Shown here one piece after another: positions 4,740-56,069 of a DNA stretch of 64,000 nt; position 1 is the stretch's first letter; the number at the start of each line of letters is the position of its first letter. Both the position numbers and the translations under genes were made by a program. Source of the stretch: Patescibacteria group bacterium (lineage in GTDB: Bacteria; Patescibacteriota; Saccharimonadia; Saccharimonadales; Saccharimonadaceae); assembly GCA_004322265.1 (NCBI GenBank), contig SCSZ01000012.1, forward strand, positions 1 through 64,000, written 5' to 3'. The notes below the pieces were generated by a model that saw nothing but the letters and a program-made list of their open reading frames with translations, was not told where the DNA came from and ran no database searches.

Positions 4740-4988
4740 TTACCCCTGTTCACCCCCGTTATCATCTAAAAAACTTGTATCGTCGATAAAATCGGACAAA
4801 ACTAGAACAGCTTTATCTTTTTTATCAATCTTAAATTCAAGGGGAAAAGTTTCGCCCTTTATTAAGATTTCCAAAACGAGTCGATCATAATCGACAGATT
4901 CGCCTGAATCTCGTTTGAATGATCGAGTATCGACATAAAGTCGTGAAATACGATTTTTTAAATTTGATAGGGCAGTTGGGTGTTCCAT
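4740..4988 (-). CDS. First phage ORF; possible ssDNA-binding (gV-like) protein
   Basis: 82 aa, beta-rich, acidic tail DDTSFLDDNGGEQG, SD AAGGAG; position analogous to gV; function inferred only. Confidence 0.45.
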   Translation of the reverse strand: MEHPTALSNLKNRISRLYVDTRSFKRDSGESVDYDRLVLEILIKGETFPLEFKIDKKDKAVLVLSDFIDDTSFLDDNGGEQG

Positions 4989-5068
4989 ATAGGCTCCTTA
5001 GTTAAATTGGTACGAGCAAATAATAACTTAGTAAAAGAATCTTAGATATAGTTGTACGTAGACTTAAC

Positions 5069-5083
5069 GTCGCACAATATATC
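5069..5083. repeat. Right 15-bp direct repeat, candidate attR (dif-like arm + core)
   Basis: GTCGCACAATATATC identical to 780-794; extended 28-bp form ACGTCGCACAA-TATATC-TTTCACGACAT has imperfectly inverted 11-bp arms. Confidence 0.55.
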
Positions 5084-5495
5084 TTTCACGACATTAGATA
5101 TTAGTGTAATAGATGAATACACATGCATCTTACATATAGGCAAAAATGAGCTATTACCCCTACGAACGTAGTAGTGTCTCTATATATTTAATATTGTCGC
5201 TTAAATACTTTTATAAAGTTTATTATTAGTATGTTTTGTCATACACTCATATGCGCCCATTGTGATATATGCTACGACCCATAGTATGGATCCTAGTACT
5301 TATCCACAATGCCTATGGCTCATTTGCTTTTTTGTGAAAACATTTCAGCACTACCCCGCTGTCCCACTTTTTGACTTATTTGCTTTTTTGTTATTTGAGT
5401 ATTATAATATGTTTTTTCTTGTTCTTTATGTTTATTAAAAAATAGAACATAAATAGAACATTGAAAGTGAGGGAGAGTAGCCTAGGGTAGCACTG

Positions 5496-6437
5496 CTACT
5501 TATAGAACGCTTTGCCGCTGACCCTAACATCAACGTAGCTAGGCGATTGCCCGTGAGCTTTAAGATATGTTAGTGCTCTATCCATATCTTCTACCTGCTC
5601 CCCTGCTGGCCTATCAATGGACAGTTTTACATGCGGTACGACGTTCTGAATAACGACCTCGAGCTGTCTGGTTGTACCGCTTGGTATAATTGCTTGAACA
5701 ATGTTATATCCCCTACTCTTTGATAGGGATACAACTCGTCCAACAAAGCCAAGAAAGCGATTACTTGCGACCGTTGTCCCTTGTTGAAGCGCTACGCCAC
5801 TATTATCAACGATTTGCACACTAGGGTCGGCAAAGTAGTTTTGCTCAAACGCAATACCGTTGGCGTCAACAAAGTACTGCTTGGAGTCAATCGTCCAACC
5901 TGCGACTGGATGACGCATACTGAGCGTTATGTTCGTGTCTCCAATTGCACCAAGCGAGATATCTGTTACATCAGCAACCTCTGGCACTGTACTAGCGAGA
6001 TAATTTTTCAGATCTGTTTTATCGAGTGCAAAACGCAAACGACTCAGCGGATGAATACCGAAGTAATCGTTAATAGCTTTTTCATAAACCGACTCGTTGA
6101 GCTTCTTCGATTGTGATGTATCTGAGGTACTAACCGTAACAACAGCAGTAAATTGTAACAGCAGTATAAACAAGACTACTGCTATGCCCAACACGACCAG
6201 GAACACCATTCCAATCTTGCGACGCCTCAGTGCTAGGTGGTGCGCATGGCTACGTGGAGACTGTAGATCCGTCGAGTGGCCAACGTCCCTAAACCGCTGA
6301 GAAGTAGTGCCCGTTAGCGTACGATTACGAGCAAAAATATATTGCCTATCATCAGGATCGCTCGATAGACGTCGTTCGGTATCGGACATCCTGCGTCGTC
6401 CTGGTAGGTCGTTTGTTTTTTTATTAAAGATTCCCAC
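5496..6437 (-). CDS. ftsQ: Cell division protein FtsQ (POTRA)
   Basis: Cytoplasmic N-term, single TM, POTRA-like domain; end of dcw cluster after murG. Confidence 0.75.
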   Translation of the reverse strand: MGIFNKKTNDLPGRRRMSDTERRLSSDPDDRQYIFARNRTLTGTTSQRFRDVGHSTDLQSPRSHAHHLALRRRKIGMVFLVVLGIAVVLFILLLQFTAVVTVSTSDTSQSKKLNESVYEKAINDYFGIHPLSRLRFALDKTDLKNYLASTVPEVADVTDISLGAIGDTNITLSMRHPVAGWTIDSKQYFVDANGIAFEQNYFADPSVQIVDNSGVALQQGTTVASNRFLGFVGRVVSLSKSRGYNIVQAIIPSGTTRQLEVVIQNVVPHVKLSIDRPAGEQVEDMDRALTYLKAHGQSPSYVDVRVSGKAFYK

Positions 6438-32013: not shown

Positions 32014-32106
32014 GCGGGTGGCGTTCGGTGGGGCAGCACCCAGATTTGTTTTATGATTGTAATCAACCAGAAAAAAATCTAGGGGCAAACCGGACGACAG
32101 GACCCG
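32014..32106 (+). ncRNA. Candidate structured RNA, copy A
   Basis: GCGGGTGGC-GTTCGGT-GGGGCAGCACCC-[hairpin]-AGGGGCAA-ACCGGAC-GACAGGACCCG, homologous and covarying with copy B. Confidence 0.65.
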
Positions 32107-55933: not shown

Positions 55934-55978
55934 ATCCGTTACAGTATAGCATATAGGAATTTTTCAGTACTGTTTTAG

Positions 55979-56069
55979 CGGGTCCTGTCATCCGATTTAC
56001 CCCTTCTTTTGATTTTTCTTATTAAAGAAAACATCAAAAGCGGGTGTTGCCCCATCGGATGCCACCCGT
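55979..56069 (-). ncRNA. Candidate structured RNA, copy B
   Basis: ACGGGTGGC-ATCCGAT-GGGGCAACACCC-[hairpin]-AGGGGTAA-ATCGGAT-GACAGGACCCG; covaries with copy A. Confidence 0.65.

Follow-up and report, generated by a model that had tools for sequence, protein, structure and literature searches.

The hairpin between greA and lysS in the window (the whole 64,000-nt stretch of DNA that was analyzed) is one copy of an imperfect palindrome that recurs in unrelated contexts across the host genome and in genomes from more than 10 bacterial phyla. The likeliest reading is a mobile palindromic repeat, ahead of an RNA gene or a leader, and on balance we favor with some confidence the view that it is a non-autonomous, dispersed palindromic mobile element and not a gene-linked RNA. 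The evidence comes from its fold and covariation, its dispersal and turnover between close relatives, and its distribution and insertion sites.

Structure of the element between greA and lysS

The greA-lysS copy (copy B), whose neighboring genes were both confirmed by Pfam, occupies positions 55979 to 56068 on the minus strand. It is 90 nt long (CGGGT...ACCCG) and is matched by a covariance model (C26:55979-56068) with 103.5 bits. A prior sequence-only reading had proposed a structured RNA here, and its sequence and pairing for the minus strand are as it gave them, with the exact end at 56068. The outermost helix, P1, is formed by CGGGT (56064 to 56068) and ACCCG (55979 to 55983), with a C-G pair changed to G-C in copy C37:12880 and in locus L047. 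It is followed by GGC (56061 to 56063) opposite GAC (55987 to 55989), in which the central G.A becomes A.G (GAC/GGC) in other copies, and by the strongly covarying P2, in which ATCCGAT (56054 to 56060) pairs with ATCGGAT (55990 to 55996). A conserved 3-nt bulge, AGG (55984 to 55986), separates P2 from P1 on the 3' side. Beyond a conserved internal loop, GGGGCA (56048 to 56053), lies P3, whose 5' strand, A-C-(A bulge)-CCC (56042 to 56047), pairs with GGG-G-T (55999 to 56003) and whose A-T pair is replaced by G-C in other copies (pair 23-73, AU in 5 and GC in 5). The variable P4 helix with its apical loop (56006 to 56041) completes the structure.

Folded as RNA, copy B has a minimum free energy of -36.7 kcal/mol (z = -4.81), which none of 200 shuffled sequences equaled. 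The complement folds about equally well (z = -6.09), and stability alone therefore cannot tell the strand. Searches against Rfam 15, which includes T-boxes, ribozymes, and riboswitches, retrieved no family at either gathering or permissive thresholds. The proposal that this is a novel structured element is upheld by its position outside Rfam, by the z score, and by the compensatory changes described below.

Covariation and the folded strand

Among the 12 complete copies in the host genome, 10 pairs have changed on both sides, with 28 doubly changed cells versus 10 expected from shuffles. For the outer part of the element (P1, GRC, and P2), 44 diverse sequences yielded 93 doubly changed cells, compared with 27 ± 4 after shuffling and 13 to 30 for structures with slid partners; given that P1 and GRC were mostly fixed by the search pattern in this count, P2 alone is independent evidence of covariation. 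At the middle pair of GRC/GRC, 136 distinct elements are divided into 85 with GGC/GAC, 43 with GAC/GGC, and 8 with other combinations. One subfamily of 23 elements retains a tandem G.A/A.G in P2, and because of it RNAalifold, which agrees on P1, P3, and P4, shifts the inner part of P2. The P2 cells of 134 elements include 35 G.T versus 3 A.C, and this excess indicates that the element strand, rather than its complement, is the one that folds and is under selection to do so.

The unpaired AGG bulge and GGGGC loop are also retained. This level of covariation, together with the conserved loops, exceeds what a pure DNA palindrome would need, and a function as RNA may be entertained. The sequence-only reading had named as its own refutation MITE-like repeats with high identity in the loops and no compensatory substitutions. 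The first half of that description holds, as the copies are MITE- or REP-like repeats with high identity within subfamilies, but the second half does not, as compensatory substitutions exist between subfamilies.

Dispersal and turnover in the host genome and its nearest relative

A covariance model (R1), built on 12 copies after a DNA search, finds 14 matches in the host genome (G000; 886 kb in 38 contigs), namely, 12 complete copies, a degenerate copy (C7:812), and a 38-nt short form (C11:2149) that looks like a deletion between two GGGGC repeats. The other complete copy in the window, copy A (32015 to 32106, plus strand, subfamily 2), is flanked by an LPG_synthase_TM gene and a methyltransferase gene of TRM11-like layout. 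The dispersal that had been surmised from these two contexts extends to all 14 matches, which lie beside unrelated genes. The subfamilies in the host genome differ in P2 and P4 and have CGGGTGGC, GGGGCARCACCC, GGGGY, and GACAGGACCCG in common. Three copies at unrelated sites are 98 to 99% identical, and two pairs are identical. Short forms of about 40 nt without P3-P4 also occur at L061:1501-1538 and in genomes G004, G008 (three, with equal scores), G015, G019, and G024; they may have arisen by deletion or may constitute a mobile short form.

Comparison with the nearest relative, G010, covered most of that genome, and the flanks of the host-genome copies align well. In G010, the orthologous sites of the C7 pair, C13, and C38:59072 are empty, and those of the greA-lysS and C38:51690 copies carry internal-deletion remnants; four further sites have a copy in both genomes. 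In two of these four cases, the orthologs of G000:C26:92574 and G000:C26:32015, the genomes hold different subfamilies in opposite orientations, through either recurrent insertion into a hot spot or replacement. Presence and absence at orthologous sites, combined with near-identical copies at unrelated ones, is the behavior of a mobile element. Alignment of the empty sites revealed no clear target-site duplication, the flanks having diverged.

Phyletic distribution and insertion sites

R1 matches are present in 24 of the 28 genomes of the genus, with 1 to 14 in each; within the order sample, a single genome from a different family also matched. We also searched genomes of 85,462 species with a 22-base pattern (CGGGTGRC-N7-GGGGC-N45..75-GRCAGGACCCG), which recovered at least 115 stretches against 0.23 expected by chance; a few of these, e.g., in Streptomyces and Amycolatopsis, lack P2 pairing and look like chance matches. 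The pattern-bearing genomes span more than 10 phyla, and the carriers, mostly metagenome bins cited here by their record names, include Saccharibacteria, Uhrbacteria, Daviesbacteria, Acidobacteria/Vicinamibacterales, Omnitrophota, Aminicenantes, Nitrospirae/Nitrospiria, Krumholzibacteriota, Acidimicrobiia, Dormiibacterota, Coatesbacteria, a Legionellaceae bin, and rumen Bacillota. With R2, a broader model, 1 to 27 copies were found in each of 18 carriers sampled from the database scan, mostly from other phyla, and of 380 genomes from the window's phylum, 23 had matches. Full elements measure 75 to 105 nt, reaching about 130 nt in some genomes, and deletion derivatives measure about 40 nt. No match was found in viral contigs or, with one copy as a blastn query, in plasmids and phages. 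The open-access literature yielded no description of this repeat or of such structured RNAs in these phyla.

Outside the genus, the two flanks of the element pair above chance over their first eight positions, with positions 2, 4, and 5 barely reaching the shuffled maximum; the energy of the flank duplex is -20.0 versus -15.2 in controls. Within the genus, such pairing is weak. Many copies outside the genus occupy the loop of a larger palindrome that is partly conserved between Acidobacteria genomes. In the Acidobacteria loci L152, L080, L070, L063, L103, and L108, a conserved outer palindrome near TAAGAGTGCGTTGCRRAATTA surrounds the element and may be another repeat family. At L102:3300-3480, the element sits between two inverted copies of TGGTGGAGAGGGACGGTTCTCCTCCACC, which form a REPIN-like pair. 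A rumen Bacillota bin (L089:7390-7560, L131:4240-4400, L134, and L158) displays arrays of a 3' half, 16 nt, a full element, 16 nt, and a 5' half, with a conserved spacer close to CTnACAGnCTTnnG.

The clearest sign of insertion is an 84-nt copy that lies in frame (L250:5564-5647) within a GT4 glycosyltransferase open reading frame (4898 to 6100) of G261, a 1.1-Mb candidate-phylum genome. On alignment to 3c4q, the glycosyltransferase has 28 residues where the homolog has 3, and the copy is predicted to add these 28 residues in a loop.

Gene context and the search for a mobilizing enzyme

GreA was found in every one of the 28 genus members, most of which had a readable spacer after greA (fewer than 27, as G022 gave only a distant GreA paralog and at a few loci lysS does not follow). 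Among the readable spacers, only the host genome has an intact element; G010 retains the remnant with an internal deletion, G004 has a broken remnant in the opposite orientation, and the others lack the element and retain a TAT-type element before lysS. The host counterpart of the latter, TATACT (55943 to 55948, minus strand), separates the hairpin from the lysS ATG (55933), just as had been noted from the sequence. A scan for sigma-70 patterns detected no full -35/-10 pair, and TATACT is accordingly a candidate element of a putative promoter. As this promoter-like element intervenes between the hairpin and lysS and relatives have no intact copy in their readable spacers, the element is neither a regulator of lysS nor a feature of the greA/lysS locus.

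More generally, upstream neighbors of the collected elements are codirectional in 53 cases and opposite in 35, and downstream neighbors are codirectional in 40 and opposite in 48, i.e., the orientation relative to genes is near-random. These counts come from simple open reading frame calling, with 48 copies overlapping a frame, many of them probably spurious in GC-rich genomes. Gene families shared among neighborhoods are limited to generic or low-complexity clusters, and none recurs beside the element; the amino-acid link that was to be sought by comparing neighbors hence did not emerge.

These contexts bear directly on the readings that invoke an RNA. That copy B is a lysS leader, a T-box or other amino-acid riboswitch, or an RNA processed from the greA 3' untranslated region is suggested by its position between the two genes and by nothing else, and we regard it as extremely improbable: most orthologous spacers are without the element, which refutes a conserved function there, the promoter-like element is downstream of the hairpin, no Rfam T-box matches, and other copies adjoin unrelated genes. 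Nor do we observe what characterizes a cis-regulatory leader, namely, a constant position and orientation ahead of homologous genes. A broader version, in which a trans-acting structured RNA family or a 3' untranslated region processing or stability element proliferated through duplication and has been retained because it works as RNA, accords with the strong single-strand covariation and conserved loops and with some excess of convergent (28) over divergent (15) spacers. It is nonetheless quite unlikely, given the near-random orientation, unconserved position, lack of a recurring neighbor, and the in-frame intragenic copy in G261; moreover, a pattern scan detected neither a terminator nor a promoter at copy B. 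The same observations, along with the spread of near-identical copies, tell against the suggestion that copy B is a stand-alone functional RNA or a product of the greA mRNA.

The remaining alternatives specify an enzyme. Y1_Tnp proteins are present in 17 of the 28 genus members, including two in the host genome, and this would be compatible with REPs or REPINs proper, i.e., palindromes mobilized by a RAYT (Y1, TnpA-REP) transposase that the same genome encodes. The left end of the element also contains GTGG/GTGA, reminiscent of the GT[AG]G at the base of REPs (PMC6006769), and REP dimers are inserted inside other palindromes (PMC3733652). In the element, GTGG/GTGA lies within the P1 and GRC/GRC pairs, where REPs tagged with GT[AG]G or CGTC have the foot tag unpaired. 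Set against this explanation, the two-sided conserved core and the size of the full elements (75 to 105 nt) are unlike those of the tagged REPs of 20 to 40 bp. The element is absent around both host Y1 (RAYT-like) genes and from the fetched flanks of all RAYT genes examined, and copies flanking a RAYT gene, as in REPINs, were not seen at these loci. No Y1 match was obtained in the carriers G004, G012, G016, and G001 (6 to 8 copies), and co-occurrence of Y1 with the element is insignificant in the 380 phylum genomes (Fisher P = 0.20) and the genus (Mann-Whitney P = 0.19). Neighborhoods and co-occurrence thus show no link to the Y1 transposase as partner enzyme, and we consider this explanation unlikely. 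The host Y1 genes, L185 (G000:C33) and L186 (G000:C37), are single copy and have counterparts in the same G010 neighborhoods; one is near a comF-like gene, and the other is beside a pyruvate kinase-like gene. A SINE-like element moved as RNA via reverse transcription, by a group II intron-type or other reverse transcriptase (RT), would fit the RNA-like fold and the truncated copies that retain only the 3' end. This appears very improbable, as RT genes do not track with the element, they were detected in only 11 of the 28 genus members, none was found in G001, G003, G004, G008, and G010, which have 7 to 12 copies, and copies are truncated at the other end too; with partial copies missing either end, the 5'-truncation signature of reverse transcription is nonspecific. 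Split autonomous copies, with a gene or transposase between the arms, were likewise not encountered in the fetched loci.

Proposed mechanism and implications

Returning to the mobile palindromic repeat, we infer mobility as single-stranded DNA (ssDNA) acted upon by a trans-acting enzyme, by analogy to the REP/RAYT system (PMC6006769) and CGTC REPs (PMC3733652). The element strand folds singly into a long, asymmetric hairpin composed of P1 (CGGGU/ACCCG), the 3' AGG bulge, GRC/GRC, the variable 7-bp P2, the GGGGC loop, P3, and the variable P4. A trans-acting enzyme might then recognize this fold in the course of replication or repair, most likely in the form of ssDNA, and copy or move the element to tolerated intergenic sites, which outside Saccharibacteria would often be the loops of other palindromes. 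Neither a partner enzyme nor a definable target-site duplication was found for this scheme, and transposition was not observed.

A stronger proposal, which we advance tentatively and with considerable doubt, is that this is an undescribed selfish element for which the folded single strand, whether RNA or ssDNA, is both the mobile and the functional species, distributed over more than 10 phyla with no known transposase and often placed at hairpin loops. The covarying core shared across distant phyla implies either that the element spread widely by horizontal transfer or that these phyla share an old mechanism. The element offers a clean bait with which to look for a new mobilizing enzyme in bacteria whose genomes are very small. 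It also cautions against taking covariation alone as proof of an RNA gene when the hairpin is intergenic and dispersed.

Comparison with known repeat systems

Like REPs and REPINs, the element is extragenic, palindromic, multicopy, and at times located inside other palindromes, and single-strand recognition is plausible for it. It differs from these tagged, simple-stem hairpins in its AGG bulge, GGGGC loop, G.A exchange, and lack of association with RAYTs, in addition to its length. With MITEs it shares the status of a short non-autonomous repeat between genes. The inverted repeats at the ends of MITEs are equal and come with target duplications, whereas the arms of the present element differ from each other in a conserved manner, and its diverged flanks show no clear duplication. 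The attC sites of integrons are also imperfect palindromes and are recognized as folded single strands, but the element forms no cassette array; in G261, neighboring copies are kilobases apart and separated by several ordinary genes, and an integron-like arrangement was rejected there.

By description, the element also resembles the Rickettsia palindromic elements (RPEs), which are dispersed, structured palindromes with both intergenic and in-frame intragenic copies, no encoded enzyme, and an unknown mechanism. Intragenic RPEs exist, and CGTC REPs likewise have no dedicated transposase (PMC3733652). The present element shares dispersal, structure, in-frame and intergenic copies, and the lack of an encoded enzyme with RPEs and differs from them in having a core sequence and fold common to more than 10 phyla. 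Small interspersed palindromes are usually lineage specific. The element described here is a new, apparently undescribed family of interspersed palindromes, set apart by how large it is, by its conserved asymmetric core, and by its breadth.
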